A stretch of DNA of 64,000 nt from Azospirillaceae bacterium (GTDB lineage: Bacteria > Pseudomonadota > Alphaproteobacteria > Azospirillales > Azospirillaceae). The stretch covers positions 1-64,000 of the forward strand of contig JARLIO010000073.1 in NCBI GenBank assembly GCA_031291675.1, read 5' to 3'. This document shows, piece by piece, positions 19,095 to 59,470 of this stretch. The position numbers and the translations under genes are program-made. The notes under the pieces are model-generated. The model saw only the letters and a program-made list of their open reading frames with translations. It was not told the origin of the DNA and did no database searches. Position 1 is the stretch's first letter; every line of letters starts with the position of its first letter.

Positions 19095-21194
19095 ATGTCG
19101 ATCATGCCGAGAATCACGATTCGTACCACCCTTTCCCTGCTGCTGGGCCTCATGGGGACGCTGCTTGTTGTCGTGAGTCTGCTCGTCCTCGGCCAGATGG
19201 TGCAGAACTGGCGATCGGCTGAACGCGTAACCGCGCTGGCCACGGTCAGCCGCGACCTGTTCAGCACGCTGATCGGCATGCGTATCGAACGCGGCTCGGA
19301 AACCACGGCGGTATTGAGCGAGGCCGCCGCGGATGACGTGACGCTGAACCGTATCGCAGAAAACCGGAAGATATCAGAAGACGGCTACGCAAAAAGCACG
19401 ACGGCGCTCGACAGCCTCGACATTCCCGGGCTGGCGCCGGTTGTCGAACGGCTGAAGGCCACCCACGACGCTGTCGCCGCGATCAGGACGAAAGTCGACG
19501 CCGAAATCGGCAAACCCAAAACGGCACGCCCCCCCGAGCTGGCGCGTGATCTGCCCACCGTGCTCGGCGCCTACTTTTCCGCGATCACGACGACCAGCGA
19601 TTTGCTCGAAGCCACCCTCAAACTCAATGATCCCGTCGTGGACCAGATCCTCGCTGTCAAGCAGTCGGCATGGGCGATCCGCGATTTCGGTGGCATGATT
19701 GCGGTGCGCATCGAAAGCGCCGCCGCTGCGGGCCGAAGCTGGACCCAGAGCGAGATCCTCGCGGCCGCGCAGGATGCTGGACGCGCCGCCTATGCGTGGA
19801 AGCTCATCAGCGACGCCGCGGCCCGCGCCGATACGCCGACGGCACTGGTCACGGCCATCAATGACACCCGTCAATATTTCGTCGGCCCGATGACCGACGA
19901 GCGCCAAGCGTTGATCGAGACCCTGAGCAGCAACGGTACCATCTCGATGCCGATGAGCGAGTTGCAAAAGCGCGATACTGCTGAACTCAGTTTCAGCGTC
20001 GGCGTCGTCAGGACCGCGCTGGCCGAAATGATCATCCATGCGGAACAACAGCAGGCACAAGCCCTGAAAATTCTGACGGGGAGCATGATCCTGCTGATCG
20101 TCGCCATCAGCCTGACCGTCCTGGGTTTCCTGATTGCGGCCAGCCGCATCAGCACGCCGATCCGGACCATGACCGAGGCCATGCGACGTCTGGCCGCTGG
20201 CGATCTGGCGGTCGCGGTCCCGGCGCCGCGCCGTCAGGATGAAATCGCCAGCATGGCCGCCGCCGTCGCGGTTTTTCGGGAGAATGCATTGCGCGCCAAC
20301 CGCCTGACCGCGGAACAGGCGGCTGCGGCCGCTATGCGCGAGGCCCACGCCAGTGCCATCGAAAATCTTGCGATCCATTTTGACCAGGCGGTCGCGTCGG
20401 TCGTCGAGATTGTGGCTGGAGCGTCAACCGAGATCGAGGCCTCGGCACAGACCATGTCGACCAACACCGATCAGACCCATGACCTCGCCATCGCTGTCGC
20501 CGCGGCCGCTGAGGAAACCTCGGCCAATGTCGATAATGTCGCCCATGCCACCGCGGAGTTGTCCAAAGCCATCGCCGAGATCGCCCACCGGGTTGAACAA
20601 TCTTCGGCCGTGTCGCAGATGGCCTCCGACGAGGCCATCCATACCAACAACACGGTCGAGGGACTGGCTGAAAGTTCGACAAGGATTGGCGACGTCGTCA
20701 AATTGATCAACGGCATCGCGGCGCAAACCAACCTGCTGGCCCTCAATGCCACGATCGAAGCCGCTCGCGCCGGTGATGCCGGCAAGGGCTTTGCCGTGGT
20801 GGCGAGCGAGGTCAAACATCTCGCCAATCAAACGGCGGTCGCAACCGAGGAAATTGGCGCCCAGATCGGTGCTGTTCAAGCCGCCACGCGGGACGTCGTC
20901 GCGGCAATTGGCGGTATCGCCAGCCGGATCGATGAGATCAACCATATCGTCACCACGATCGCTGCCGCCGTTGAAGAGCAATCAGCGGCCACAACGGAGA
21001 TCTCGCGCAACATCCAGCAGGCGGCCTCCGGAACCCGCGACGTTTCGGCAAATATCGGTGCGGTCCGCTCCGCCGTCTCCGAAAACGGAACGATTGCCGG
21101 CAATGTCCTGATCGCGGCGCGGTCCTTGTCCCAGGAGGCCACGGTCCTCAAGGATCTGGTCGTCAAGTTCTTGACAGAAGTCCGCGCCGCATAA
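19095..21194 (+). CDS. transmembrane methyl-accepting chemotaxis protein (first of a tandem pair)
   Basis: This 699-residue receptor has a membrane helix at about residues 9-31 ([20 protein letters not shown]). A roughly 290-residue mostly helical periplasmic region follows, with the motif M-R-I-E-R-G-S-E. A second helix lies at about 325-348 ([17 protein letters not shown]), then a HAMP domain ([16 protein letters not shown]). The signalling hairpin tip [18 protein letters not shown] lies near residues 543-560. The R-x-E-R-G motif recalls NIT-type sensor helices, but the ligand cannot be read. The ATG follows AAGGGATAGAAATCAA. The next gene is a close paralogue of the same length. No CheR pentapeptide is present; the protein ends F-L-T-E-V-R-A-A. 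Confidence 0.93.
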
Positions 21195-21430: not shown

Positions 21431-23530
21431 ATGCCTTTCTTTTCAAAGACCACGATCCGTACCACCCTGATGCTGGTGGTCGGGATCATGAGTATCCTGC
21501 TGATTTCGCTGACTGTACGGGACCTGAGCCAGGCGACCAGCCGCTGGCATGAGGCCAACCGCTTGACCGTGCTGAGCACGATTGACCGCCACCTGTTCCA
21601 GGCGCTGCTGCAGACGCGGTTGGAGCGCGGCAGCGAGGTCGCGACGGTGCTGGCCGACGCCCCCGCCGACGACGCCGCGATCAACCGGATTGCAGACTAT
21701 CGCAGAATTTCCGAAGACGGTTTCGCTCAAAGCCTGGCGGCCCTGACCGCCTTGCGAACCGACGGCCTGCCGCCCCTTGTCGCGCATCTGACGTCGACCC
21801 ATGACGCGGTGATCGCACTGCGCGCAAAAATCGACACCGCTTTCCACCAGCCCAAATCCAATCGTGTTGCGGATCTGGCGCCGGAGATCATGAGTGTCGA
21901 AGGGGCCTTCCTGGACGCGGTCAGTCGCGTCAGTGATCTGCTGGAGTCCACGTTAAAAATGAGCGATCCGACGGTCGATCAGATCCTGTCGGTCAAACGG
22001 TCGGCCTGGGCGATGCGGAGCTTCGGCGGGCTGATCGCGGTTCGCATTGAAAATGCCGCGGCCACCGGCCAGAACTGGACCGTGGCGGACATGGTTGGTG
22101 CCGGCGAAGACGCCGGTCGTGTCGCCTATGCCTGGACCCTGGTGAGCGAAGCCGGCACCCGTTCCGATACCCCGAAAGCACTGGCGGAGGCCATTCGCCA
22201 GGCCGGACGATATTTCGTCGGCCCCATGGCCGACCAGCGGAAATCCCTGATCGCGACCTTGAGTTCGCCGGAAAAACTGGCGATGTCGGTGGCAGAACTG
22301 CAAAAGCGGAATACCGAAGAGCTGACACTGAGCGTCACGGTCGTCAACGAGGCCCTGACCGCGATGATCGATCGCGCCGCCAGCCAGCAGTTCAAAGCGC
22401 TGCGCACCTTGGCCATCAGTGCGGTTCTGCTGGCATTTACCGTCCTGCTGACCGCCTTTGTCCTCACCATCGTATCCCGACGCATCGCCTTCCCGCTGCG
22501 CCGCATGACCACGGCCATGCAGCGCCTTGCCGACGGCGACATGGCGATCGACATCCCCGATCGCAGCCGACAGGATGAAATCGGCTGCATGGCCAAGGCC
22601 GTCCAGGTCTTCAAAGAGAACGCCATTCAGGCACACCGGCTGGCTGATGAGCGCGCGGCAACGGCCGTGATCCGCGAGGCGCACGCGATGACGCTTGAGT
22701 CCCTGGCCCTTGGCTTTGACCAGGCGGTTTCCTCGGTCGTTGATATCGTCGCGGGGGCTTCCAGCGCGATCGCGACCTCGGCGCACACGATGTCGAACGG
22801 CGCCGAACAGGCCAACGGGCTGGCGATGACCGCCGCGGCGGCCGCGCAACAGACCGCGGCCAGCGTGCATCACGTTTCCAGCGCCGCCGAGGAACTGTCG
22901 CATTCCATCGCCGAAATCGCCCATCAGGTTGAACAGTCAAGCCGGGTGTCGCAAATGGCGGCTCAGGAGGCCGTCCATACCAATGCCACGGTCAAGGGCC
23001 TGGCCGAGAGTTCCACGAAAATCGGCGATGTCATCAAATTGATCAACGACATCGCCGCGCAAACCAATCTGTTGGCGCTGAATGCCACGATTGAGGCGGC
23101 CCGGGCCGGCGATGCCGGCAAGGGCTTTGCTGTCGTCGCCGGCGAGGTCAAGCATCTGGCCAATCAAACGGCCCTCGCGACGGACCAGATCGGGATCCAG
23201 ATCAACGCGGTCCAGAGCGCGACCCAGGAGGCGGTTGCCGCGATCGGCGTCATCGTCTCGCGGATCGACGAACTGGACCACATCGTCGCCACCATCGCAG
23301 CGGCGGTCGAGGAACAATCCGCGGCCACCGCCGAAATTGCCCGCAACGTGCAGCAGGCGGCCTCGGGAACCCGCGAGATCTCAGGTCATATCGGCAGCGT
23401 CCGTTCGGCGGTTGGCGACAATGGCATACGGGCGGACGACGTCCTGTCCTCCGCCCGGTCCCTGTCCCGGGAAGCCGCCGGCCTCAAGGACCTGGTGATC
23501 CGCTTCCTGAGCGATGTCCGCGCGGCGTAA
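21431..23530 (+). CDS. transmembrane methyl-accepting chemotaxis protein (second of a tandem pair)
   Basis: This paralogue of the preceding receptor has the same length (699 residues) and layout: helix 1 at about 9-29, a helical sensor region containing T-R-L-E-R-G-S-E, helix 2 at about 330-352, HAMP, and a signalling tip near 543-560. The signalling domains are almost identical. The sensor regions differ at many positions while keeping blocks such as [17 protein letters not shown] and Y-F-V-G-P-M-A-D-Q. This indicates duplication followed by divergence of ligand response. It starts 236 bp after the first receptor, behind GGGGAGGGA. Two copies of the dispersed repeat follow the stop. Confidence 0.93.
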
Positions 23531-23775: not shown

Positions 23776-24735
23776 TCACAACGCCGGCGCCGCCGACAGT
23801 GCGCCGGCCAAAGACGGGGTCTCCCGAAACGCCAGCCGATTCCGCCCGGCCGTCTTCGCCTGGTACAGGCGGGAATCCGCCACCGAAATCATCGACCCGG
23901 CCGGCGTATCCCGGTTTGGAACCATCGCCGCGACACCGGCACTGACGGTGACCATGGGCGCACAGCTCGATCGCGCGTGCGGGATCATCAGGGCGCGCAC
24001 ATGCTCAAGAATGTTCTCGGCAACCGCCCTGGCTCCGTCGATGTCCTCCTGCGGCAAGAGCACGACGAACTCCTCGCCGCCGTATCGCGCGACCAGGTCG
24101 GCGGCCCGATGCACGCATTCACCGAGCGCGGTCGCCACTTTGATCAGGCAGCCGTCACCGCTCTGATGTCCGTAATGGTCGTTGAAGGTCTTGAAACAAT
24201 CGATGTCGATCAGGATCAGTGCGATCGAAAGGCCCGCGCGTTCGCAGCGCCGCCATTCGCGATCGAGCGCGACATCGAAACCGCGCCGATTTGCGATCCC
24301 GGTCAATCCATCGCTAAACGCCATTTTCCGCAACAGATCGCTTTGGCGTTTGAGTGTCAACTGGGTGCGGACCCGGGCCCGCACCACCGCCTCGTTGATC
24401 GGCTTTGAAATGAAATCGACAGCACCTGCTTCAAGCGCTCGCGCTTCGTCCTCCGGTCCGTTGAGCACGGTGACAAAGATGATCGGCAGATCCCAGGTTT
24501 GGGCCGTGGACTTCAGTTCCGCGCACACGGCATAGCCGTCCATGTCCGGCATCACCGCGTCCAGCAGCACGAGATCGATGGCCTGGGTCCGCGATATCTC
24601 CAGCGCTTTTTCGCCATTCAGGGCAAAAACAACCTCATGCTCATCCTTGAGGGCATGATGCAGGACCCTGACATTCTCGGCGGCGTCATCGACGATCAGG
24701 ATGCGCCCTGGTCTCGCGATTTCGGCCCAACTCAT
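23776..24735 (-). CDS. response-regulator diguanylate cyclase (REC-GGDEF)
   Basis: This 319-residue PleD-like protein joins a receiver domain (residues 8-125) to a GGDEF domain (140-305) that makes c-di-GMP from two GTP. In the receiver, D16/D17, the phosphoacceptor D59 in L-V-L-L-D-A-V-M-P-D-M-D-G and the S-K-P lysine are present. The catalytic motif is intact as R-Y-G-G-E-E-F (219-223), and an R-x-x-D product-inhibition site (R210-A-A-D213) sits five residues before it. It should therefore be active and self-limiting. Its ATG overlaps the stop of the large hybrid kinase by four bases, so that kinase, through its HPt domain, is the likely phosphodonor. Confidence 0.95.
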   Translation of the reverse strand: MSWAEIARPGRILIVDDAAENVRVLHHALKDEHEVVFALNGEKALEISRTQAIDLVLLDAVMPDMDGYAVCAELKSTAQTWDLPIIFVTVLNGPEDEARALEAGAVDFISKPINEAVVRARVRTQLTLKRQSDLLRKMAFSDGLTGIANRRGFDVALDREWRRCERAGLSIALILIDIDCFKTFNDHYGHQSGDGCLIKVATALGECVHRAADLVARYGGEEFVVLLPQEDIDGARAVAENILEHVRALMIPHARSSCAPMVTVSAGVAAMVPNRDTPAGSMISVADSRLYQAKTAGRNRLAFRETPSLAGALSAAPAL

Positions 24736-27700
24736 ACATCACCGTCGGGTTCCAGTTCGTTCCTCGCGGCCAGAGCATATTTCTTTGCGGTCGCAAAATC
24801 CAGGCGATCAATGGCACTTGTGATTTTCCGGATGTCGACGCCGCGCCGCACGGATTCAAGCATCGGGACTAGGCGTTGAAACGCATCGATGGCCTTGAGA
24901 TCGCACAGGTCCAGCAGCGCCAAGAGCGCGTTCAGGTCCGCGCGCAGCGCGGCGACGTCCCCGGTCGCGGCCGCCGGCTCGGGATCCGCCACCCCCGGGA
25001 TGCCCCGCGCGGTCGCCACCACGACGGCAACCGCCGCCTCAAGATCGGCGACGAGCGCCGCAGCCTCGGGGCCACGCCCCGACGTCAACGCGGCTTCGGC
25101 ATCGAAGGCCAGGCGGGCAATCTCGACGGCGCCCAGATTGGCCGCGGCGCCGCGCAGTCGATGCAGGCCACGGGCGGCATCCTCCCGCTTTCCCTGGGCC
25201 AGGAGAGCGGCGACTTCGGCCGCGGCCCCCGCCTGCTGGTCCGCGAACATCACCAGCAGCGCCTCCAGCAGGTTCCGGTCGCCGTCCAGGCGGAGCAACG
25301 CCGACGCCACATCAATTCCGGGCAGGTCGGGGATCGGATCGACCGGCGGCTCCGGTGGCGCGGCTGGCGCGGGATTGAGAGGGGGGGGCTCGGGCTCCCC
25401 TTTCTGTCGCGCCCGGAGCACCTGCACACTCAATGTCGTGATCATCTCCTCGACATCGATCGGTTTGGCGATATGGGCATTCATGCCCGCCTGCAGCGAT
25501 CGTTGACGATCAGGGCCCATGGCGTTGGCGGTCATCGCGATGATCGGCAATGCGGTCAACCCCAGGCCGGAACGAATGATCCGGGTGGCCTCGTATCCGT
25601 CCATCCCCGGCATCTGGACATCCATCAGCACGGCATCGAAACGGCCGGCCTGGCTTTGCAGGGCCTCAACGGCCGCGCGGCCATCGGTGGCGATCTCAAC
25701 CGTGGCGCCGGCGCGCATCAGCAGTTCGCGAGCGACCTGCTGATTGATCTCATTGTCCTCGACCAGCAGGAAATGCCGGCCGGCCAAACGCCCGGCCAGG
25801 GGCAGAAAACCGGATGCCGGTTTGGGCATGACGTCCCCTTTGCGCGCCCGGGCCACAGCGTTGAAAACGGTTGAGGGCGTCGTCGGTTTTGCCAGCACCG
25901 CATCGATCGGCAGGTTCTTCGCGGCGGCAATGACATCGCCGCGACCGAATGCGGTCACCATCACGATCGCCCCCGGGAGCTGGATCGCCGGATCGGCACA
26001 AGCGCGCTCCAGCATCACCACCCCGTCCATTTCCGGCATCCGCCAATCGAGCAGCAACACGTCACAAACCCGGCATTCCGCGGTCTGTTGTCGCAGCTGG
26101 TCGAGAGCCTCGGCCCCAGAGGCCGCCTCCGCGACATGCCACCGGAATGATTCGCAGGCATGGACCAGAACCGCGCGCGCCGTTTCATTATCATCGACAA
26201 CCAGGACGTCGAGATCGTCCAAATCAGGATAGCGGGGTGCCGAGGACAAGGCCTCGTTCGACAGGCCGAACCGGGCGGTGAAGTGGAATTCACTGCCCTG
26301 CCCTTCCCGGCTGACAAAATCGATGGTCCCCCCCATCAAGCCGACAAGGCGGCTGCAGATCGCCAGGCCGAGTCCGGTGCCGCCATAGCGCCGGCTGGTC
26401 GAGCTGTCCGCCTGCGAAAATGCCGAGAACAGGTTGGCCTGCTTTTCCAGCGGAATACCGATGCCGCTATCCTTGACAGAGAATTCCAGGGTCACCTCGG
26501 TCGGGTCTTCGGCGGCCTTGGTGATCGCGAGAACGACTTCGCCCTTTTCCGTGAATTTGACCGCGTTGCCGGTCAGATTCAACAGCACCTGCTGCAGGCG
26601 GAGCGGGTCGCCGACCAGGCCCGCCGGCACGTCGGGCGCCACCGAGATGATCGTCTCGATCCCTTTTTCCCGCGCATTGATCGAGAAAATCACAGCGATG
26701 CTGTGCAACACCTCGTCGAGCGAAAACGGCGTCTTTTCGAGCTCGAGTCGCCCGGCTTCGACCTTGGAGAAATCCAGAATGTCATTGAGGATACCGAGCA
26801 GCGACTGGGCCGAGAGCTTGATCTTGGCCACATAGTCGCGTTCGCGCTCCCCGAGCGTCGAATCCTCCAGCAATCGGGACAACCCCATGATGGCGTTCAT
26901 TGGTGTCCGGATTTCGTGGCTCATATTGGCGACGAACTCGCTCTTGGCCCGGCTCGCGGCCTCGGCGGTGTCGCGCGCGGACGTCAACTGTTCGTTGAGC
27001 TCCTGCAGGCGCAGCTCAGCCGCCTTGAGCGCCGTGACATCGGTGACCAGAACAAAGAAGCCATTCACCTGACCGTTGTCGTCGATGTCCGGAATATAGT
27101 TGGCCCAGGTATGGCCGATCTCCCCGGATGCCTTGACCAGCGACCGCTCGAAATTCTGGGGTTCGCCGCGCAGCACCGCCCGGATATGGGGGTCATTGCG
27201 GGCGTACAGTTCGTCGCCGAGCAACTCGCGCAATGTGCGACCGATAATTTCATCCCAATCCTTGCCGAACCACTCGATATATTTCTTGTTGACGAAGCGA
27301 TTGCGCTCCTGCGCGTCCCAATAGGCCATCATCCCCGGGATATTGTCCGTGACCATCCGCAGGAATCGTTCACGCTCCAGCAGGGCCCGCCGGGCTCCGG
27401 TCTCCTCGGTAATGTCGTTGATGATGCACAGCAGGTGGGATTCATCACTGCTGGTGAAGGGCACGAGGAACGCATCGGCCCAGACCTCGCGCCCAGACGC
27501 CGTGACATGGTGAACATTGACCTGCCGCGCCTCTCCCGCCGCCAGGGCCTCATGCGCCGTTTCGAGAAGATCGGTATCGGTCCAGGCGTCCAGGGTGAGG
27601 AAGCTGCCGACACCGACATCGCCGAGGGTTTGCCCCATGATCTCCGCATAGGCGGCGTTGGCCAGGACGCACGTCCCCGTCGCCTTGTAGGCGACGATGC

Positions 27701-29258
27701 CGACAGGACATTTGGAAATGATTTTCTGATTGAGGTCGAGCAGGTCATTGAGACGCTGTTCGATCCATTTGCGATCGGTGATGTCGTCGTGACTGACGAC
27801 GGCGCATCCCCTCTCACCTTTGAGCGGCGTGACCTGAAGGTGAAACCAGCTCTTGCCGTCGGCGAGCCGGCAGGGATATTCGGCGGCGAACTCGCGGCGC
27901 CGGCCGGCCATGACGTCCTCGATCCCCTCGACAATTTCGGCCTGAGCCAATCCGTCGCTGCCGAAACCGCCCCCCATCGTCAGAAAATTCGTCCCGATGC
28001 CCGGCGTTGCCCCGGGTTCGCCCCATGGCACACCGCCATGTTGATTGAATTCCCGCCACGGCCGGTTGACCTCGAGAATGGTGCCGTCGGCATCGAGAAT
28101 CGCGATGCGGGATGCGACGGAATCCAGAACGGCACCGATGAAATCGTTATTCGCCGTGAGGTGCTCGGAGGACGCCTTCAACGCTGCGTTGGAGCGGCTC
28201 AGCAAGGTCGTCTTTTCCGCCAGTGCGGCCGTGGCGTGCCGCCAGTCGGTGATACGGCGCTGCAAAATAGCCATCCCCAGGATCACCAGGGCCATCATCA
28301 ACGCGCCGAAAACCATGAAATGCTGGCTTTCACGACGCCAGTCCGCCAGATAGTCGCCCTCGGACAGCCCGACCACCAGGTAGTAGGGCTGGCCCACGAT
28401 CCGACGGATCGACGCGATCCTTTGAACCCGGTCCATCCCGGAAACAAACCGGAACTGGCCGACGCTCTGGCCAGAGGCAATGATCGACCGGACATCGTCC
28501 GATTGGGAGAAAATCCCTTCCGGTGTGCGCAGTCCGGGGAGATCCGGAATCCGGGCCACAACCCTGAAATTGTTATGGAGCAGGGTGACGATACCGCCCG
28601 GTCCCAGATCGACAACGGAAAATGCGTGCGTCAACGCCCGGGTCGAGATTCCCGTCAGCACGGCACCGCCAAAGGATCCGTCAGCGTTCGCGATCCGCCG
28701 TCCCAGCGCGATCGCCCATTGGTTTGTCATCGGATCGATGACCGGTTCATCGACCGCCAGACCGCCGCGGGGATTGTCACGCAACGCCGTGAAGGCGCCT
28801 TGGCGCGAAAAATCAAACTGCCGCGCGTCCCCTTGATCCTCGCTGTAACGGAGACGCCCATCAGCACCGACGATCCGGAACCCCAGAAGATCGCCCTGGC
28901 GCACATTCTGCCGCACGATCGCGGCATTGATGGCGTCATCGTCCCAATGACCCGATTGCTGTTGTCGACCGACCGCGTCCACAACCGTTTGCAGGCCCAG
29001 ATCGGCTTCACGCAGCAGACTTTGAAAATTTTCGATCAGGGCCTGGGAAATATTGCGCGTGGTCGCCTCGGCGGTACGCTGCGCGTCGGCCCGGCCTTGC
29101 ACAATGGCCCAGCCGATCACCACAACGATCACCACGATGATAACCGCGCCGCTGCCAAGCAGCGGGAAGAGACCGGATTGCCATCCAATCTTCGGCCGCT
29201 CGGTCGGATCCGCTGTCATCGAATCAAGCTGCGCTTCCGGGGCATCGATCCTGTTCAA
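24732..29258 (-). CDS. multidomain hybrid sensor histidine kinase (Cache-PAS-HisKA-HATPase-REC-REC-HPt)
   Basis: This 1508-residue membrane kinase contains a complete phosphorelay. Order: TM1 about 30-52, a double-Cache-type periplasmic domain about 55-320 (with Y-Y-L-V-V-G-L-S), and TM2 about 322-345. Then come a short coiled coil, three PAS domains (about 365-760) and HisKA with [10 protein letters not shown] near 778. HATPase follows (G-T-G-L-G-L-A-I-C), then REC1 ([10 protein letters not shown] near 1069), REC2 ([10 protein letters not shown] near 1209) and an HPt domain ([12 protein letters not shown] near 1364). It is translationally coupled to the diguanylate cyclase downstream. The start is uncertain: TTG at 29258, or ATG at 29219 thirteen codons in. 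Confidence 0.94.
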
Positions 29259-30324: not shown

Positions 30325-31326
30325 TCACGGTATCGCGTGGATCTTGCCGTAGAGCGCCCCGGACCAGGCGTAATTCGTGCTGGATGCCAGGGGCGCGATC
30401 CGGGCCGCCAGGGCATCGCGATCCACCGGAAAGAACGTGACGCCGCGTTGTTCCAGCATGGTCCGGCTGTCGAGTTCCCGCTGCCGGATCCGCTCACTCA
30501 AGCGCTCACTGAGCCTGGTGAACACGGCGCGGACCAGATCGCGTTGGCGCGCCGGCAGCGCCGCCAGGCGCGCGGCATTGACCAGGAACAGCGCGGTGTC
30601 AAGCATGTGGCCGGTCAGCGTGATATTGGGCGCGCGCTCGTAGAATTTCTCATCGTCGATCGTCGCCAGGGTCTTCTCAACGGCATCAAAACGACCGCCA
30701 TCAAACCCGTCATTGATCGTCGAAAACGGCCAGGGTGTTGGCACCGCGCCCAGGGCCTGGAAAAATTGAAAATAGATCGGGACACTGGGGACGCGAATGC
30801 GAAGGCCGGTCAGGTCGCCAATGCCGCGAACCGGCATCCTGCTGATGACATGGCGAAATCCACTATAGTAAAAGCCGAGCACAATCGTCCCGCCGCCTGA
30901 CGCGTCGTAACCGCCAATGAGATCCCGGGCCAGAGTGCTGTCCTTGAAATGCGACCAATGCATGTAGTCGCGAAAGACGAAGGGCGCCGACAGGACGGAA
31001 AGGGACGCGAAGTCACGCGCCGCGGCCGACGCTCCGATGATGGCAATGTCGCTCCTGCCGAAAATGACCGAGTCCAGCAGCCGCGAATCCTGATCGCCCA
31101 GCAGACCGTTGGGCTTGATTTCCAGTCCAATCCCGCCATTGCTCCCGGCCAGCAATTCCTGGTTCGCTTCCAGCAAGCCCTGATGCTGGATCGACGCCTC
31201 GCTATAGAGGTGAGCGACGATCAGGATTTCGCGGGCCTCAACCGGCCCGCCGAAGCCCAGCGCCAGGGCGATCACGCCCAACGCGAAGGTCTTGCGAACC
31301 GGTCGGCGCCAAAGGGCGGCCGTCAT
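30325..31326 (-). CDS. TRAP-type (DctP-like) periplasmic solute-binding protein encoded in a signalling operon
   Basis: This 333-residue protein has a signal peptide (residues 1-32, cleavage after P-V-E-A-R-or nearby). It shows the DctP fold pattern: N-Q-E-L-L-A-G-S-N-G-G-I-G-L-E-I-K-P-N-G-L-L-G-D, F-G-R-S-D-I-A-I-I-G, D-L-T-G-L-R-I-R-V-P-S-V-P and F-S-T-I-N-D-G-F-D-G-G. The family normally delivers organic acids to a TRAP permease, but none is encoded here. Its ATG overlaps the stop of a histidine kinase gene by four bases, and an EAL-domain regulator lies upstream of that. The inferred role is as a ligand sensor for the kinase rather than a transporter part. Overall similarity to transport DctPs is visible but moderate. 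Confidence 0.82.
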   Translation of the reverse strand: MTAALWRRPVRKTFALGVIALALGFGGPVEAREILIVAHLYSEASIQHQGLLEANQELLAGSNGGIGLEIKPNGLLGDQDSRLLDSVIFGRSDIAIIGASAAARDFASLSVLSAPFVFRDYMHWSHFKDSTLARDLIGGYDASGGGTIVLGFYYSGFRHVISRMPVRGIGDLTGLRIRVPSVPIYFQFFQALGAVPTPWPFSTINDGFDGGRFDAVEKTLATIDDEKFYERAPNITLTGHMLDTALFLVNAARLAALPARQRDLVRAVFTRLSERLSERIRQRELDSRTMLEQRGVTFFPVDRDALAARIAPLASSTNYAWSGALYGKIHAIP

Positions 31327-32999
31327 GACACACCGCTTATCGGGGCCACATCGCCAGGCTCCACAACCGTCGGCGCGGCATCCTCGTCCTGTTGCGGCGC
31401 GACAAACGGAAGACAAAGGATGAAGAAGGAGCCCTCCCCCGGGCTGCTGATGACGTCGACCGAACCGCCCAGGACGCGGGTGACAATCGCATGCACGATA
31501 TTGAGGCCAAGCCCGCTGCCGCCCTGGCCAAACCGTGTCGTAAAAAACGGTTCAAACAGATGCGCCCGATGTTCCGGCAGAATGCCCGCGCCGTTGTCGG
31601 CGACGCAGAGCGTGAGGAACGTGTCGTCGAGCGGCGTTGCCTCGATCGTCACCGTGCCCCCGTCACGCCCGTCCAGACCATGGATGACCGCATTCTGCAA
31701 CAGATTGCTCAGCACCTGACCCAGCGGCCCCGGGAAACTATCCATCGTGATCGCGTCATCGACGATGATGTTGAGATCGACGGGGCGGTGTTTGAACAAG
31801 GGCATCGTGGTGACAACAACCTGGTGGATGATCTCGGCCACAGTAAATTGCCGGCGCAGGCTGCTGGTTCGATCAACGGCGACCTGTTTGAAGGTTCGGA
31901 TCAGTTCACTCGCTTTTTGCAAGGTCGTCGAAATCAGGCCGCTGGCGCGCCCGACCCGGTCGACGAAGGCAACCAGATCCGATTTCCGGATCCGATTTTC
32001 TTCGAGCAGCACGGCGAACGCATCATGCTCTTCGAGCAATGTTGTCGCGACGGTGTAGGCCGACCCCAACGGGGTGTTGATCTCATGCGAGACCCCGGCC
32101 ACCATGCGGCCCAATGCTGCCAGACGCTCGGAATCCCGCAATTCGCGTTCCGCGCTTTGCAGCCTGTTCAGGTTGCGCTTTTCCTCCTCGATGAGTTGCC
32201 GCCGTTCCAGCAGACGCTGGTGCAACTCATGCAGGGCGGTGGCCATGACGCCGATTTCGTCACGCCGCGAACCCGTTTCGATCGGTACGCTGAGATCATC
32301 CTCGGCCATGCGGCGCATGGCCTGCGTCAGGGTGTCAATCGGCGTCGTGATCCCCCGGACCAACAAAACCCCCAGCAACCATGACAGCAGGATCATCACC
32401 ACGGTGCCGAAGCGAATCGAAGAAACCGTCGAGGTGTAGATGCGCCTGCTGTGGTCGGCGGCCTGGCGCCCCTGATCCGCGATCTGGTCCCGGACCGCGA
32501 TCAGACAATCCCGTGTTCTCCGAAAACCGGCCTCGCCCGCTTCATTGTAGACGGTGCGGGCGCGCTCGATGCCATCCATCGGTTCAAACAGATGCCAGAC
32601 CATTTCACGGCTGGCATTCTGGTAACCGCGCCAAGCCTCATCAAACGCGGCGATCAAGCGATCATCATCATCACGCTGCGGCCGAAACTTGTCATAGTCG
32701 CGGCGCAGCAGATAAAGGGAATCACGGGCACTCCACAGCCGCTCCTCGCTGCTCAGCCGTTCCACCATGTCCCGGGTCAGCAAGGAACGGCCCTCGATGA
32801 TCCGGTAATCCTCGATGCCGGACATCAGATCCCCGACAACGGCCAGGGCGGGAAGCCACCGGTCGCGAATCGCTGCCGCCTCGGCATTGACCTTGTTCAG
32901 ACTGTCGGTCGCGATGAGGCCGATCAGCATGTCGAGCAGCAAAATGATGGCGAAGGCACCATAAATCTTGGTCCGCAATTTTAGATTGCGCGTGCGCAT
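31323..32999 (-). CDS. sensor histidine kinase (helical-bundle sensor, HAMP, HisKA, HATPase)
   Basis: This 558-residue membrane kinase has TM1 at about 12-30, a roughly 160-residue periplasmic four-helix-bundle-like domain and TM2 at about 195-215. HAMP follows (I-D-T-L-T-Q-A-M-R-R-M-A-E-D-D-L), then a coiled coil and the phospho-acceptor motif G-V-S-H-E-I-N-T-P-L-G with His near residue 305. The ATPase domain has N-L-L-Q-N-A-V-I-H (N box), D-N-G-A-G-I (G1) and G-S-G-L-G-L-N (G2). It has no receiver of its own. It lies 13 bp downstream of an EAL response regulator and overlaps the DctP-like gene, so the three should act together. The ATG at 32999 is taken as the start. Confidence 0.93.
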   Translation of the reverse strand: MRTRNLKLRTKIYGAFAIILLLDMLIGLIATDSLNKVNAEAAAIRDRWLPALAVVGDLMSGIEDYRIIEGRSLLTRDMVERLSSEERLWSARDSLYLLRRDYDKFRPQRDDDDRLIAAFDEAWRGYQNASREMVWHLFEPMDGIERARTVYNEAGEAGFRRTRDCLIAVRDQIADQGRQAADHSRRIYTSTVSSIRFGTVVMILLSWLLGVLLVRGITTPIDTLTQAMRRMAEDDLSVPIETGSRRDEIGVMATALHELHQRLLERRQLIEEEKRNLNRLQSAERELRDSERLAALGRMVAGVSHEINTPLGSAYTVATTLLEEHDAFAVLLEENRIRKSDLVAFVDRVGRASGLISTTLQKASELIRTFKQVAVDRTSSLRRQFTVAEIIHQVVVTTMPLFKHRPVDLNIIVDDAITMDSFPGPLGQVLSNLLQNAVIHGLDGRDGGTVTIEATPLDDTFLTLCVADNGAGILPEHRAHLFEPFFTTRFGQGGSGLGLNIVHAIVTRVLGGSVDVISSPGEGSFFILCLPFVAPQQDEDAAPTVVEPGDVAPISGVS

Positions 33000-33012
33000 C
33001 GCCCCGCCCCTC

Positions 33013-35202
33013 TCATCCGCGACGCTGATCGATCCACCGTTCCAATTCGTTCAATTCCTGGGGGTAGGCATAGAAGAAACCCTGAACATTGGCGATCTGG
33101 ACGGCACGAACGGCATTGAGCTGTTCCTTGGTCTCCACACCTTCCACGAGGGTCTCCAGGCCGAGTTCAGAACAGATGTCGACGATCGATTGCAGCAGAA
33201 CGCGCGCCCGTCGATCGACCGACACTTCCTGCAGGAACGACCGGTCGATCTTGACCATGTCGAGCGGCATCGAGCGCAGCATCGACAGTGAGGAATGGCC
33301 CGTGCCGAAATCGTCGAGCGCGATCTTGTAGCCCAGGCGGCCGGCCTCGCGCAGTTGGGCAATTGCCGCCTCGCTGTCGAGCAGCGCCGTCTCGGTGATT
33401 TCCCATTCGACAAACTGAGGACGCAGCCCTTCGCTTTCGACGATGGCATGAAGGCTGGCAAGACAGGAAGGGTTGCGAAGCTGGACCGGCGACAGATTGA
33501 TCGCGACCCGATCCATGCGTCCGGCCAACAGCAGCGGACGCATGTCGCGGCACGCGCGCCGCGTCACCCATTTACCCAGATCGGAAATCAACCCGGTGGC
33601 CTCGGCCAGCGGGATGAACTGAGCCGGCGAGATGAAGCCACGCTGCGGGTGACGCCAGCGCAGCAGGGCCTCGACGGCGATGACCCGGCCGCTCTCGATC
33701 TCGATCTGGGGCTGATAGCACAGGAAAACCTGATCGCCGTCCAGGGCCTCGCGCAACTCATGGGCCAACAGGATCCGCCCCTTTTGGCCTTCCTCAATGT
33801 CGGGAGTATAGACCGTCAGCGTCCCGGCCCTTGTCTGTTGCGCCTTGTGCAGCGCCATCTCACCGCAGCGCAGCAGATGGCGGGCGGTAATCTCCCCGGA
33901 CGGCGCCGGCGCATAGCCGAACAACAGGCTGACCCACAAGGTCCGCCCGGCGATCACCAGCGGTCGTCCGATCGACTCAAGCACCGCCGCCTGATCGGCG
34001 AAAACATCGGCATCAAGGATCACGGCAAAGACGTTGCCAAACAGGCACCCGACATAATCCGGGCGCCGCGAGACCTCCATCAGCCTTTCCGAGAAGGCCC
34101 GCAACAGGTTTTCGCCAAATTCACCACCCAGCAGTGTGCTGTAGTCGGTGAAGCGGTCGATCGCGACAATGAGAACGCCAAACTGCCGGCCCTGGGCCAG
34201 CAGATGGTCGATCGTCTGCTCCAGGCGGGCGCGCGTGGGCAAACGGGTGACCCGATCGATGAAGGCGGCCTCGGAGACCGCTTCAAACAGCCGGACATTC
34301 TCAAAACCAAGCGACACGTTATGACAATAAAGCTGCAACAGCTCCCGATCAAAGGGATGTACCGCGGCGCAGCTACGCATATAGATGACGCCACACCAAT
34401 CGCCGCCCGCGATGAACAGCGCGATGTCACGGGGACCGGCAATGTCGTGTCGTTGTTCGAGAGCCCGTGTGATGACTGCAACGACCTCGTCATCGCGAAT
34501 ACTGCTGAGAGAGCAATTGACGGCTTCACGGAATTTTCCGGCACCACCGACAATGACGGCATCGGAACGGTCCGACAACTTGCTGACGCAGAGCAGACCA
34601 TCGGGCGGCAGGCCCAGGTGAGCCGCGATCTGCGTCACGACGCCACTGGCGAATTCATTGATCCCATGCTGCCGCATCAGGTTTGATGAGGCCTCGATCA
34701 CCATGCGCAGTCCCTGACGGTTCTTTTGCAGGGCGACGATCTGTTGGTAGGCGCGCAAGGCACAAACCACCGCGGTCCACAGGCGGAGCTGCGTGAGTTC
34801 CGATTTCTCCTTGTAGTCATCAATGTCATAGCGCCGGATCACGTCCATTGTCGGTGCGTAACCCGGCTGTCCGGTCCTGAGAATGATGCGCACCGCGGTG
34901 TTGCCCATGGTCTCCCGGATCTCGCGGACCAGGTCGAGACCGGCATGCGCGGTCTCCATCACGACATCGAGAAGAACACAAGCGATGTCCGGCGTGCTTT
35001 CCAACAGGTGGCGCCCCTGGGCTGCCGAGCCGGCATACAGAATGGTGAGCGAACGCCCCTCGAACTGCGTGTTTTCCAGCGCGATCCGGGTCGCCTCGAA
35101 AACCACCGGTTCATCGTCGATCACCGCGATCTTCCACGACGGCAGCGGGGCGATCGGACCATGACCCTGGTCCTCGGCCAGAAATTCGAGAAATTCACTC
35201 AT
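33013..35202 (-). CDS. response regulator with degenerate GGDEF and intact EAL (c-di-GMP phosphodiesterase)
   Basis: This 729-residue protein has a receiver domain at about 22-150 (I-D-D at 28-30, phosphoacceptor D79 in C-V-L-L-D-V-V). A DUF3369-like domain follows at about 160-310, then a GGDEF-like domain at about 320-470 and an EAL domain at about 480-725. The GGDEF signature is lost (F-G-N-V-F where G-G-D-E-F is expected), so no cyclase activity is predicted. The EAL domain keeps V-E-A-L-L-R-W, N-L-S-P, E-I-T-E, D-D-F-G-T-G, K-I-D and L-V-E-G-V-E-T, all needed for c-di-GMP hydrolysis. It is first in an operon with a kinase and a DctP-like protein; the kinase is the likely phosphodonor. 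Confidence 0.94.
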   Translation of the reverse strand: MSEFLEFLAEDQGHGPIAPLPSWKIAVIDDEPVVFEATRIALENTQFEGRSLTILYAGSAAQGRHLLESTPDIACVLLDVVMETAHAGLDLVREIRETMGNTAVRIILRTGQPGYAPTMDVIRRYDIDDYKEKSELTQLRLWTAVVCALRAYQQIVALQKNRQGLRMVIEASSNLMRQHGINEFASGVVTQIAAHLGLPPDGLLCVSKLSDRSDAVIVGGAGKFREAVNCSLSSIRDDEVVAVITRALEQRHDIAGPRDIALFIAGGDWCGVIYMRSCAAVHPFDRELLQLYCHNVSLGFENVRLFEAVSEAAFIDRVTRLPTRARLEQTIDHLLAQGRQFGVLIVAIDRFTDYSTLLGGEFGENLLRAFSERLMEVSRRPDYVGCLFGNVFAVILDADVFADQAAVLESIGRPLVIAGRTLWVSLLFGYAPAPSGEITARHLLRCGEMALHKAQQTRAGTLTVYTPDIEEGQKGRILLAHELREALDGDQVFLCYQPQIEIESGRVIAVEALLRWRHPQRGFISPAQFIPLAEATGLISDLGKWVTRRACRDMRPLLLAGRMDRVAINLSPVQLRNPSCLASLHAIVESEGLRPQFVEWEITETALLDSEAAIAQLREAGRLGYKIALDDFGTGHSSLSMLRSMPLDMVKIDRSFLQEVSVDRRARVLLQSIVDICSELGLETLVEGVETKEQLNAVRAVQIANVQGFFYAYPQELNELERWIDQRRG

Positions 35203-54385: not shown

Positions 54386-55666
54386 TTACTGGAACAGGTC
54401 GTGGACAAACATCGAAGTCTCGGGCACCAGGGTCACCAGAATCAGGGTCAGCCACAAGGCCAGCATGAACGGCCAGATCGACTTGACAACCTTGGCAACC
54501 GATACTTCGCCGATCGCGCAACCGAGATAGAAAGCGGCACCAACCGGCGGCGTGTTAAGGCCAATCGTGGAGTTCAGCAGCACGATGATGCCGAACTGGA
54601 CCGGGCTCATGCCGTAATGGACCACGATCGGCAGGAAAATCGGCGTGCACACCAGGATATGCGCTGCCATGTCGAGGAAGATCCCGAAAATGAACAGGGC
54701 GATATCGACCAGGATGAAAATCACCCAGGGCGTGGAGCTGATATCGCCCAGAGCATCCCCGACCGTCTCCGCGACGCCGTAGAGGCTCAACAGATAACCG
54801 AACATCGTCGAGATGCCGATCAGCAACAGCACGACACCGGTGGTTTTGCAGGCCTTCGCCGCGGCCTTCAGGAAATTCTCCCAGGTCAGGCTGCGATAGA
54901 CCAGGGTCGTCAGCAACAGCGCGTAGAGGACCGCGACGGCACCGGCTTCCGAGGCGGTGAAGGTGCCCGACAGGATGCCGCCGACGATGATCACCATGAT
55001 GAACAGGCCGGGCACCGAGGTCGCGAGGCTGCGCCCCACTTCGGACCATCCCGGGAACTTCCCCGCCGGATAGCCGCGGGCGATCGCGACCAGATAAGCG
55101 GTCAGGACGTTGGCAACGGTCAGCATCGCGGCCGGCACGGCACCGGCCATGATCAGCGAGTTCATCGAGACCACGCCGCCGGCGGCCAACGAATAGATGA
55201 TCATGTTATGACTGGTCGGCATCAACGCCCCGACAAGCGAGGAATAGGTCGTGACATTGACCGCGTAATCGGCGTCGATCCCCTCGCGCTTCATCAGCGG
55301 GATCAGGGCCGACCCCATCGCCGAAACGTCCGCCACCGGTGAACCGGACACACCACCGAACATGGTGCAGGCCACCACGTTGGTCATGCCGAGCCCGCCG
55401 CGGACGTGGCCAACCATTGCTTTGGAGCACCGAATCAGGCGGTCGGCAATCCCGCCATACATCATCAGCTCGCCGGTGAAGATGAAGAACGGGATCGTCA
55501 GAAATGAGAAAACATTCATGCCCGCGGCCATGCGCTGGAACACGACGGCAACCGGAAGACCTTCGAAGAGGACGGTAGCAAGAGACGACAGGCCGATGGC
55601 GAACACCACAGGCATACCGAGCAACAACCCAAGGACGAAGGTCACGCAGAGAATGGTTAGTGCCAC
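54386..55666 (-). CDS. TRAP transporter large permease (DctM-like)
   Basis: This 426-residue membrane protein has about 12 hydrophobic segments and the DctM pattern: G-M-P-V-V-F-A-I-G-L-S-S, F-F-I-F-T-G-E-L-M-M-Y-G-G-I-A-D-R-L-I, G-G-V-S-G-S-P-V-A-D and S-T-I-G-L-N-T-P-P-V-G. It drives sodium- or proton-coupled uptake of the substrate captured by the DctP protein. The GTG start at 55666 overlaps the dctQ stop by 10 bp and follows TGGAGGTCACACC. A frame open to 55843 is a shadow of dctQ. The neighbouring kduI/kduD genes suggest uronates as cargo. Confidence 0.93.
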   Translation of the reverse strand: MALTILCVTFVLGLLLGMPVVFAIGLSSLATVLFEGLPVAVVFQRMAAGMNVFSFLTIPFFIFTGELMMYGGIADRLIRCSKAMVGHVRGGLGMTNVVACTMFGGVSGSPVADVSAMGSALIPLMKREGIDADYAVNVTTYSSLVGALMPTSHNMIIYSLAAGGVVSMNSLIMAGAVPAAMLTVANVLTAYLVAIARGYPAGKFPGWSEVGRSLATSVPGLFIMVIIVGGILSGTFTASEAGAVAVLYALLLTTLVYRSLTWENFLKAAAKACKTTGVVLLLIGISTMFGYLLSLYGVAETVGDALGDISSTPWVIFILVDIALFIFGIFLDMAAHILVCTPIFLPIVVHYGMSPVQFGIIVLLNSTIGLNTPPVGAAFYLGCAIGEVSVAKVVKSIWPFMLALWLTLILVTLVPETSMFVHDLFQ

Positions 55667-56217
55667 GACGGTGTGACCTCCACTTTCAGAAAACGCGCAA
55701 CGATCTGTTCGATCGCAAACAGGGAAATCAGGATGCCGCCAATGGCCAGGGGCAGATAGCTCCACCCCTGTGAGATCGGCAGCCCGGGATTGAGGTACGG
55801 CATCATCGCGATGCCGAGAACCGCACCGCCCCAGGACATGCACAAACCAAAGACGATCATGCAGAGAAAGACGAAGATCTCAATCCAACGCCGGATCGAG
55901 GGAAACAGGTATGACACCAGCGATTCCATCCCGATGTGCCGACCGTCACGAACACCAACCGCAGCCGCAAAACACGCGACGTAGAGAACGACCACCAGCG
56001 CCAGGATCTCCGTCCAGGTCGGCGAATTGTTCAGCACGTAACGTCCGAAGATCTGGGTCAGCACGGCTCCCAGGATGACAATGAGCCCAAAGACCGCCAG
56101 TTTGAGGCAGAGCCGGGAAAGCCAGGCGTGGAAGCCGAAATAGTAAGAAAGAAACCCCGTGGTAATGGACGTGGTCGGGGTGTGTAAAGGCGCTGAAGCC
56201 AGCGGCTGCGCAGCCAT
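55657..56217 (-). CDS. TRAP transporter small permease (DctQ-like)
   Basis: This 186-residue protein has four predicted membrane helices and the DctQ hallmarks R-Y-V-L-N-N-S-P-T-W-T-E-I and G-V-R-D-G-R-H-I-G-M. It links the binding protein to the large permease. An unusually long soluble N-terminus (about 25 residues) precedes the first helix. It is 323 bp downstream of dctP, a gap with stem-loops, and overlaps dctM by 10 bp. Confidence 0.9.
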   Translation of the reverse strand: MAAQPLASAPLHTPTTSITTGFLSYYFGFHAWLSRLCLKLAVFGLIVILGAVLTQIFGRYVLNNSPTWTEILALVVVLYVACFAAAVGVRDGRHIGMESLVSYLFPSIRRWIEIFVFLCMIVFGLCMSWGGAVLGIAMMPYLNPGLPISQGWSYLPLAIGGILISLFAIEQIVARFLKVEVTPSWH

Positions 56218-56378
56218 CCGTGTGTCTCCTCATAGGCCGTCAGGGTTCGGTGACCGTCGCGTTGCGCTGTGACACGCCACGGCGCCGATCGCACGCGTTG
56301 AACAGGACAGTCGGAAACCCGCCATTCGACGGCCACCGCGCACGCCTTCCGCCAAGAGGGCAATCCGGCGAGAGGGCC

Positions 56379-56485
56379 ACCGGGAACCGATCCCGGTCCG
56401 CCCTCTTCTGGTGCCACCGGGCCGGAACAGAGTCCGGCCGGGGCCATCCGGTCGCTCGCCCGCGGGTCACCGATGGCGACCCGCG
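56379..56485 (-). terminator. two intercistronic stem-loops between dctP and dctQ
   Basis: CGCGGGTC/GACCCGCG (56461-56468 with 56478-56485) and ACCGGGA/TCCCGGT (56379-56385 with 56391-56397) lie in the 323-bp gap 56218-56540 between the binding-protein gene and the permease genes. Such structures could attenuate transcription or protect the upstream message, giving more DctP than permease. No T-runs follow. Nothing else is seen in the gap. Confidence 0.5.
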
Positions 56486-56540
56486 ATCCCTTTGATGACG
56501 GCGCGACGGGGCCGGGAATCCGGATCCCGCCCCTCCGCAC

Positions 56541-57515
56541 TCACTTCGTGTCTTGGATGCGAACCAACAGGGCTTTCAGCTTGGGATCGGTGATGAACTG
56601 GTCATAAACCGGCTTCATCGCGGCCTGGAACGGGGCCTTGTCGATGGTGATGACTTCACTACCGGCCTTCTCAACCGTAGCACGCGACGAAATTTCCATA
56701 TCGTCCCACAGCTTGCGCATATAGGGCACGGAATCCTTCGCCGCCTTCCGGACGAGCTTCTGTTCGTCGGGGGTGAAGGCGTCATACACCTTTTTCGACA
56801 TCAACAGCACTTCAGGCGCCATCGAATGCTCGGTCAAGGTAAAGTATTTGGCGACTTCATACTGGTGAGACGACTGGTAGGTCGGCCAGTTGTTCTCGGC
56901 GCCATCGATCAGGCCGGTTTTAAGGCCGGTGAAGACCTCGCCCATCGGCATCGGCGTCGCATTCGCACCGAGGGCGCGCATCACGGCAACCCAAATGTCG
57001 GACTGCTGAACGCGGATCTTCAGGCCTTTGAGATCGGTGATGCTGCGAATTGGTTTGATGGAATAGAATGACCGTGACCCTGAGTCGTAAAAGGCCAGGC
57101 CGACCATGCCTTGCGCGTCACAATCGGAGAGGAGCTCGTCACCGATCGGACCGTCAAGAACCGCACGCATATGGTCTTTGTCGCGGAACACGAAGGGCAT
57201 GACCGGAACCATCATCGCCGGGCAGATCGTGTTGAGCGTACCGGTATTGACCCGCAGGAAGTCAATCGCGCCGAGCTTGACCTGCTCGATCGTATCCTTC
57301 TCGCTTCCCAGCGTGGAGTTCGCGAAAACCTTGACCGAATATTTGCCGTCGGTCAGCTTGCTGAGCTCGTCGCTCATGAACTGCACCGCCTTGACCGTGG
57401 GATAGTCGGCCGGCTGAACGTCGGCCGACCGGAACACCCGCGCCTGCGCCTGAGACGCCCCGAGCGCGACCCCCCCGACCAGTGCCGCCATGGCTATTTT
57501 CTTGGCAAACTTCAT
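56541..57515 (-). CDS. TRAP transporter solute-binding protein (DctP-like), probable uronate binder
   Basis: This 324-residue periplasmic protein has a signal peptide (K-K-I-A-M-A-A-L-V-G-G-V-A-L-G-A, cleavage near A-Q-A-R) and the DctP features: L-T-D-G-K-Y-S-V-K-V-F, T-L-G-S-E-K-D-T-I-E-Q-V, L-K-G-L-K-I-R-V-Q-Q-S (the conserved Arg contacts substrate carboxylate) and L-K-T-G-L-I-D-G-A-E-N-N. The start at 57515 follows ATGGAGGAAATAACG. Known DctPs with this K-I-R-V-Q arrangement often bind uronic acids, which fits the kdu genes nearby, but the ligand is inferred. An inverted repeat lies 20-42 bp upstream of the start. Confidence 0.92.
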   Translation of the reverse strand: MKFAKKIAMAALVGGVALGASQAQARVFRSADVQPADYPTVKAVQFMSDELSKLTDGKYSVKVFANSTLGSEKDTIEQVKLGAIDFLRVNTGTLNTICPAMMVPVMPFVFRDKDHMRAVLDGPIGDELLSDCDAQGMVGLAFYDSGSRSFYSIKPIRSITDLKGLKIRVQQSDIWVAVMRALGANATPMPMGEVFTGLKTGLIDGAENNWPTYQSSHQYEVAKYFTLTEHSMAPEVLLMSKKVYDAFTPDEQKLVRKAAKDSVPYMRKLWDDMEISSRATVEKAGSEVITIDKAPFQAAMKPVYDQFITDPKLKALLVRIQDTK

Positions 57516-57534
57516 CGTTATTTCCTCCATTTGC

Positions 57535-57557
57535 GTTTCACACGAACTGCGTGAAAC
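57535..57557 (-). promoter_or_regulatory. inverted repeat in the dctP leader
   Basis: GTTTCAC (57535-57541) and GTGAAAC (57551-57557) form a perfect 7-bp inverted repeat with a 9-bp spacer, 20 bp from the dctP start codon. It may be an operator or a leader hairpin. It does not resemble the TGGTATGG sites near the GntR gene. Confidence 0.45.
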
Positions 57558-57658
57558 CGTTTCTTCACGTTACGCGCGTTCCGCTACCAACCTCTGGTTC
57601 CCGCCACCCGTTTGATGCCCGAAGGCTTGGCCAAAGAACCAGTCCGTCAAGAGTTTCC

Positions 57659-58492: not shown

Positions 58493-58543
58493 GCCACTTT
58501 TTGTTACCACAGGCGGCATCTCTTGGCGATCACCGGTCGGGGC

Positions 58544-58588
58544 TTGGTATGGTACGCCATTCCCTTCGCCCGGCGTTCTGTGGTATGG
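58544..58588. promoter_or_regulatory. two TGGTATGG sites in the divergent GntR / hydratase region
   Basis: TGGTATGG occurs at 58545-58552 and again at 58581-58588. The first lies in TTGGTATGGTACGCCA, a near-palindrome like the TTGGTATACCAA-type operators bound by FCD-class GntR regulators of uronate genes (UxuR/ExuR). The sites lie between the divergent hydratase and regulator genes, where an autoregulated repressor would act. Confidence 0.5.
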
Positions 58589-58693
58589 CAGCTCATATAT
58601 CAGATTTTCCGTGGATTGACCATGACCGGAATCGTCGCAGATCGCGGTCAAAATCATCACCCCACGGTCTTGGAGACGGAGAGGCGGAACCGC

Positions 58694-59410: not shown

Positions 59411-59470
59411 ACCACAACCGATGCGGCCGCGGCCAAACGCCACAGCCGCCGATAACCGGAGAAGAAGAAC

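Follow-up and report, generated by a model that had tools for sequence, protein, structure and literature searches.

A 64,000-nucleotide stretch of DNA from an Azospirillaceae bacterium (assembly GCA_031291675.1, contig JARLIO010000073.1, positions 1 to 64,000; hereafter the window) carries on its minus strand, at positions 30325-35202, a set of three genes for a response regulator, a sensor histidine kinase and a solute-binding protein (SBP) of the tripartite ATP-independent periplasmic (TRAP) type. We consider it rather likely that this set represents an SBP-assisted two-component system controlling the breakdown of cyclic di-GMP (c-di-GMP), in which the SBP presents its ligand to the kinase. 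The unit comprises the following features:

33013-35202, minus strand: first gene, response regulator of 729 aa with receiver (REC), DUF3369, degenerate GGDEF and EAL domains (Pfam and motifs)
33000-33012, minus strand: intergenic gap of 13 bp between the regulator and kinase genes (sequence)
31323-32999, minus strand: second gene, sensor histidine kinase of 558 aa (Pfam, motifs, AlphaFold model and fold matches)
31323-31326, minus strand: ATGA overlap of the kinase stop codon and the binding-protein start codon (sequence)
30325-31326, minus strand: third gene, TRAP-type (DctP, PF03480) SBP of 333 aa (Pfam, SiaP alignment, AlphaFold and Foldseek)

The regulator, kinase and binding-protein genes probably form one operon, because a convergent short-chain dehydrogenase/reductase (SDR) gene ending at 30274 and a gap of 606 bp to the next minus-strand gene upstream (which ends at 35809) bound the unit; a single transcript is deduced from the gene spacing, and scans for promoters and terminators yielded nothing decisive. 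The open reading frame (ORF) of the binding protein at 30325-31416 begins with a TTG that reflects a mechanical ORF call only, and the likely start is the ATG at 31326, which overlaps the kinase stop codon at 31323-31325. An original prediction, made from the bare sequence, had given the same coordinates, a 4-bp overlap between the binding-protein and kinase genes and a spacing of 13 bp between the kinase and regulator genes, all of which were confirmed in the sequence, the overlap as ATGA. Its statement that no permease is present holds within the operon, whereas the window as a whole does contain a complete DctP-DctQ-DctM set, at a distance of about 23 kb; its description of a REC-EAL regulator is correct for these two domains and passed over the DUF3369 and GGDEF domains.

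In the proposed mechanism, the secreted TRAP-type SBP, freed from a permease, would catch a ligand in the periplasm, putatively of the carboxylate type as judged from its equivalent of SiaP Arg147. The SBP would dock on the sensor of the co-encoded kinase, a four-helix bundle, and the kinase, via its HAMP domain and His305, would change the phosphorylation at Asp79 of the regulator; this phosphorylation may raise or lower the EAL-catalysed breakdown of c-di-GMP.

The binding protein was assigned to PF03480 (DctP; 5.9e-43) and to NF037995 (131.7 bits; cut-off 50), and scored 117.6 bits against TIGR00787, below the cut-off of 175. Structures were modelled with AlphaFold as single chains only, for the sensor part of the kinase and for the binding protein; the model of the latter reached a mean predicted local distance difference test (pLDDT) score of 89.7, with low values only at residues 1-26, and matched SiaP and other TRAP SBP structures in Foldseek. 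A signal peptide was recognized by eye (approximately residues 1-31). In an alignment to SiaP chain 9bh3_A (SiaP number = window number minus 31), the ligand arginines are kept (R158 = SiaP Arg127; R178 = SiaP Arg147), and K218 occupies the position of SiaP Asn187, presumably a ligand-contacting residue, at which 39 of 41 DctM-linked proteins have Asn; this hints at an altered ligand. The two docking sites read T203 at SiaP Glu172 and R91 at SiaP position 60, and Arg was found at position 60 in none of the 41 DctM-linked proteins. The site of HiSiaP Asp58 reads F89, which carries little meaning because Asp58 is not conserved among DctM-linked proteins. For Haemophilus influenzae SiaP, permease binding at background is reported for the variants E172R and D58R, and strongly reduced, nearly background docking for S60R, each with a wild-type-like affinity for sialic acid (PMC9352664); for P. 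profundum SiaP, exchange of the conserved Glu (E170A) is reported to reduce transport (PMC9971032). Because it is without features that dock such proteins to an importer, the window binding protein is probably the ligand-catching antenna of the kinase.

Position 172 was chosen post hoc from a column scan, before the docking paper (PMC9352664) was consulted, and was surveyed in 107 binding proteins and then in a later set of 30 loci. In the first set, Glu was present in all 41 DctM-linked proteins, including the permease-neighboured protein of the window (56541-57530), in none of the 31 kinase-linked proteins (30 Gln, and Thr in the window) and in none of the 13 linked to methyl-accepting chemotaxis proteins (MCPs; Asp 5, Gln 3, Lys 2, Arg 2, Leu 1). 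Proteins for which neither kind of neighbour was seen had Glu in 15 of 20 cases, and two of the five non-Glu rows, L241 and L243, have Asp. With both sets pooled, Glu is found in 62 of 67 DctM-linked versus 1 of 46 kinase- or MCP-linked proteins, L241 and L243 being left out of the 46. The equivalent of SiaP Arg147 is Arg in 107/107 binding proteins.

The genome that holds the window (G000; 5.87 Mb, 97.7% complete) contains four PF03480 proteins, and one DctM was found in it. This permease lies in the window, outside the operon, together with its own binding protein:

54386-55843, minus strand: DctM, the only TRAP permease found in the genome
55657-56217, minus strand: DctQ, beside DctM
56541-57530, minus strand: binding protein of DctQM (PF03480)

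The TRAP transporter cluster extends over 54386-61074 with GntR, KduI and SDR genes, and these neighbours of the DctQM set suggest that it serves sugar-acid uptake. The existence of a DctQM in the same genome allows the view that the window SBP is a second substrate receptor for this distant permease (54386-56217) and stands beside the kinase gene for co-regulation. We regard this as quite improbable: the DctQM has an SBP of its own (56541-57530), the two SBPs fall into different parts of the tree, and the window SBP has T203 and R91 at the docking positions. Each of the other two permease-less SBP genes of the genome, C36:6950 and C73:41778, is followed after about 10 bp by an MCP gene (MCPsignal by Pfam); with the window SBP, every permease-less TRAP SBP of this genome, three in all, has a receptor as neighbour.

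In five genomes of genus g6 of the same family, PF03480 genes number 6 (G005), 2 (G015, where one gene yields two matches), 2 (G020), 3 (G024) and 4 (G029). Profile searches for DctM found none in G005, G015, G020 and G024 and one in G029, where C153 is the sole PF03480 gene of the five genomes that adjoins DctM. Among the other 16 genes, 9 adjoin an MCP gene and 2 a gene for a dCache-HAMP-cyclase receptor (11/16); with the profiles used, neither neighbour was seen for 5 of the 16 (G029 C276, two in G020 and two in G015), and for one of these, G020 C291, the contig ends before the downstream neighbour can be read. The own genome and the five g6 genomes together thus give a receptor-linked share of 14/19 permease-less genes. 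MCPsignal matches number 68 in the own genome and 37 to 84 in the five g6 genomes, and the chance of an MCP gene beside a given gene is roughly estimated as a few per hundred (one MCP per approximately 50 to 100 kb). The cyclase receptors (dCache-HAMP-adenylate/guanylate cyclase) stand directly beside permease-less TRAP SBPs in G005 C13 (L226:2462-4606) and G024 C84 (L231:6046-8190).

Six further permease-less genes, from five other genomes beyond the g6 set, were examined. At L243 (G009 C76; L243:1318-5803) a TRAP SBP gene and the PAS-GGDEF-EAL gene directly after it share a strand, possibly as a binding-protein-steered c-di-GMP enzyme without a kinase, and at L241 (G004) the SBP gene and a hybrid kinase gene are divergently oriented; both SBPs have Asp at position 172, as given above. 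One more permease-less SBP gene, L211 (G012 C3), adjoins an MCP gene.

The kinase matched 4HB_MCP_1 (2.9e-8), HAMP (6e-13), HisKA (2.7e-5, below its cut-off) and HATPase_c (2.9e-24). Its layout comprises a periplasmic four-helix bundle (approximately residues 33-196, with membrane limits set by eye), HAMP (212-264), HisKA with His305, and HATPase. A motif check of the kinase and the regulator found the kinase, receiver and output motifs all present. The AlphaFold model of kinase residues 1-265 is a membrane-spanning four-helix bundle (mean pLDDT 86.6), to which 904 chains were realigned for comparison of the sensor fold. The top matches include MCP2201 (Z 18.6, 141 aligned, 1.9 A), LytS in its complex with XylFII (XylFII-LytSN; Z 16.1, 122 aligned, 2.0 A), HK9 of R. 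palustris (Z 15.7, 126 aligned, 1.9 A), TorS (Z 15.5, 119 aligned, 2.1 A) and TorS from TorS-TorT (Z 15.4, 121 aligned, 2.3 A). Because these matches comprise SBP-bound LytS and TorS as well as direct ligand binders, the modelled fold allows either mode, SBP docking or direct ligand binding. At E 0.01, Pfam gave no TorS_sensor_domain match for the window kinase; the domain was found in six SBP-linked MCPs (L037, L227, L228, L232, L236 and L237; E 3e-7 to 7e-4), two of which (L227 and L237) exceed the curated cut-off.

The regulator matched Response_reg (2.9e-6; 27.8 bits, below the cut-off of 30.2), DUF3369 (8.8e-44), GGDEF (1.7e-14) and EAL (5e-68). Its REC motifs are VIDDE (27), LLDVVM (77, with Asp79) and LRTGQPG (108), and its EAL motifs are EALLRW (511), NLSP (569), DDFGTG (630), KIDRS (651) and VEGVET (686); the site of the GGDEF signature reads LFGNVF (387) and is degenerate. 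We take these motifs to have their customary functional meaning. Given its EAL motifs, and LFGNVF in place of the GGDEF signature, the regulator is predicted to be a c-di-GMP phosphodiesterase. All three DUF3369 genes found in the genome, that of the window included, adjoin a kinase gene.

Relatives of the triple were sought in genome contigs with the REC-DUF3369 half of the regulator, and the best 80 of 289 relatives were kept (mostly Bradyrhizobium, Tardiphaga and Rhodopseudomonas; 36-42% identity). A full-length TRAP binding protein is encoded before the kinase in 30 of these 80 loci, which is a lower bound because some loci end short upstream, and DctM was found in 0/80. The regulators of all 30 triples end in a kinase C-terminal part, not in EAL (profiles; Pfam agrees for the two scanned, L166 and L094), and among the best 80 of 289 regulator relatives there was no second triple of binding protein, kinase and REC-DUF3369-EAL regulator. 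Because the loci are close relatives, the 30 triples count as approximately one evolutionary event. Genome G030 was rejected as a second triple for the DctM beside its binding protein (L204).

The window SBP, used as the query against genome contigs, retrieved no relative there, and tblastn against plasmids gave 216 records; the 30 listed all share less than 32% identity with it, and many of them carry a SiaP annotation. A class-wide search of 385 genomes, in each of which up to five candidates were scored, gave 23 loci at E<=1e-33 in 22 genomes besides the own (26 to 35% identity), and DctM adjoins on the same strand in 18 of these 23. On a tree of 69 rows, with the 30 kinase-linked Bradyrhizobium-type proteins reduced to 10, the window SBP has a branch of 2.77 changes per column and groups with 23 DctM-linked and 6 unclassified rows (99/91); support for its placement was weaker (85) on a larger, quick tree, and placement on a long branch is unsure. 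The kinase-linked Bradyrhizobium clade groups apart from it, with the type that includes 56541-57530. A single clade of all kinase-linked SBPs, which would mean a common origin with those of the Bradyrhizobium triples, was rejected (p-AU 5e-5), as was a single clade of all receptor-linked SBPs (p-AU 2e-5), the approximately unbiased (AU) test having the bias of its model. The window SBP thus appears to have been recruited from a transporter lineage, independently of the Bradyrhizobium triples.

The very long branch, the Lys in place of Asn187, which is otherwise almost invariant, and remnants of TRAP SBPs elsewhere are what one might expect if the third gene were a decaying or unrelated passenger without a role in signalling. 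The remnants, of 98 aa, are found close to where the kinase gene begins in four more of the 80 loci, of Bradyrhizobium type (L128, L152, L157 and L171), and suggest that the adaptor was lost repeatedly there. For the window such a passenger seems very improbable, as its gene is a full-length ORF overlapping the kinase gene, and the encoded protein has both ligand arginines, a signal peptide (recognized by eye) and a confident model (pLDDT 89.7).

Several results weigh against presentation of the ligand by the SBP. The best sensor matches include the direct ligand binders MCP2201, PcaY (PcaY_PP) and Tsr, and Z values up to approximately 14 are common among helical bundles. HAMP starts at residue 212 in the window kinase versus at least 318 in the scanned SBP-adjoining receptor ORFs (values inflated by the ORF starts), i.e. 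the window sensor is shorter. No SBP was found within approximately 6-8 kb on each side of the kinase-regulator pairs that are closest in both halves (L205, L206, L208 and L223; L206 was read on one side only, at a contig end), within approximately 6-8 kb of L209 and L210, which are the remaining DUF3369 pairs of the own genome, or within 1.5 kb of related sensor domains at 29 loci, nearly all chemoreceptors. Since four of the six further permease-less genes had no visible signalling gene alongside, a permease-less gene is not by itself a receptor-linked one. In the survey of position 172, both cyclase-linked proteins read Glu (2/2), in a poorly aligned motif too diverged to trust. The later set had Glu in 21 of 26 DctM-linked proteins (the other 5 Gln) and in 1 of 2 MCP-linked proteins (two duplicates removed), which weakened the contrast from 41/41 versus 0/44 to 62/67 versus 1/46. 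The tree holds 3 independent contrasts on supported branches (5 on all branches), and all 3 are as expected (p=0.25).

The docking Glu is not universal, as five DctM-linked proteins (L263, L264, L269, L271 and L273) have Gln at its site, in a DQLYNAL-like motif. The MCP-linked TRAP binding protein that has it, L274 (G006), may serve both a permease and a receptor.

The direct-binder folds and the related kinase-regulator pairs without an SBP agree with a kinase that senses its ligand directly by the four-helix bundle, the SBP merely concentrating the ligand or boosting sensitivity, as described for CuaD of Ruminiclostridium cellulolyticum; there, CuaSR senses cellobiose in two- and three-component forms, without or with CuaD (PMC10384115). 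Direct sensing would leave unexplained the overlap of the SBP and kinase genes and the recurrent adjacency of permease-less TRAP SBPs to receptors, and we consider it unlikely.

Presentation of the ligand by the SBP, as put forward in the original prediction, is partly supported. That the SBP serves the kinase and not a permease now has a firmer footing than gene order would give it, from the sole DctM found having its own SBP, from the receptors beside the other two permease-less SBPs, and from the loss of the docking Glu and the Arg at position 60, but no second EAL triple appeared in the 80 loci and the nearest kinase-regulator pairs are without an SBP. The periplasmic helical domain it assigned to the kinase is indeed predicted as a four-helix bundle, which is LytS/TorS-like but also like direct ligand binders, and the genome survey it proposed did recover permease-less triples, in 30 of 80 loci with kinase-ending regulators, but not an EAL version. 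Because the nearest kinase-regulator pairs have no SBP nearby, we read the SBP as an addition to a pre-existing two-component type and the triple as a local assembly.

A wider proposal, which we hold at about even chances, is that TRAP SBPs repeatedly became permease-free adaptors serving chemoreceptors and kinases, and perhaps also cyclases and GGDEF-EAL proteins, that the kept Arg and the loss of Glu172 mark most of these, that some bacteria (as in g6) have them without any TRAP permease, and that the window represents an independent recruitment for c-di-GMP breakdown. TRAP SBPs are usually taken as evidence of uptake; if the class is real, many would be receptor antennae. Checking just the residues at SiaP 172 and 147 would then help to sort TRAP SBPs, and ligand screens with SBPs could name the signals of kinases, chemoreceptors and c-di-GMP enzymes.

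Other signalling genes of the window comprise two chemoreceptor genes in tandem (19095-21194 and 21431-23530; 699 aa each, identical architecture), and a gene for a hybrid kinase of 1508 aa (24732-29258; weak Cache match, PAS, receiver and Hpt), which adjoins a REC-GGDEF gene (23776-24735).

Among known systems, TorT-TorS and XylFII-LytS have a partner of periplasmic-binding-protein fold that binds a kinase sensor built as a helical bundle, and the modelled window sensor resembles these sensors in structure; the TorS sensor is longer, and to our knowledge the partners TorT and XylFII are not PF03480 proteins. In Vibrio cholerae, the periplasmic SBP NspS steers the c-di-GMP enzyme MbaA; NspS is a polyamine SBP and acts directly on a GGDEF-EAL receptor, without a kinase and regulator as in the window. 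The Bradyrhizobium-type triples share with the window a TRAP SBP, a HAMP kinase with a related catalytic part, a REC-DUF3369 regulator and the absence of a visible DctM, but differ in gene order (SBP-kinase-regulator), in the kinase-ending regulator, in a longer sensor and in the SBP lineage. DctB of Bacillus subtilis is a DctP-type protein. Like the set proposed here, DctB-DctS-DctR is described as a co-receptor with a kinase, in this case for C4-dicarboxylates, but the transporter DctA is also required (PMC6978683). In Bordetella pertussis, the carboxylate SBP BctC is reported to signal to the kinase BctE, as proposed for the window, but is of the tripartite tricarboxylate transporter (TTT) family and also serves its own permease (PMC5812351). 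In CuaD-CuaS-CuaR, the SBP gene likewise adjoins kinase and regulator genes and CuaD is reported to bind its kinase, but the SBP is one for a sugar, cellobiose, and the output is uptake-gene expression instead of c-di-GMP (PMC10384115). SBP-stimulated receptors of several kinds, kinases and c-di-GMP enzymes included, have already been described (PMC9602780), and a review notes 1 of 27 binding-protein-clan families as studied as a domain in c-di-GMP networks (PMC8846402). Titles and abstract openings in the literature showed no report of TRAP SBPs paired with such receptors; we do not claim that the pairing is unpublished. The triple of the window would represent a known kind of system, and what distinguishes it is the TRAP origin of the SBP, the loss of permease-docking residues and the c-di-GMP output predicted for its regulator.

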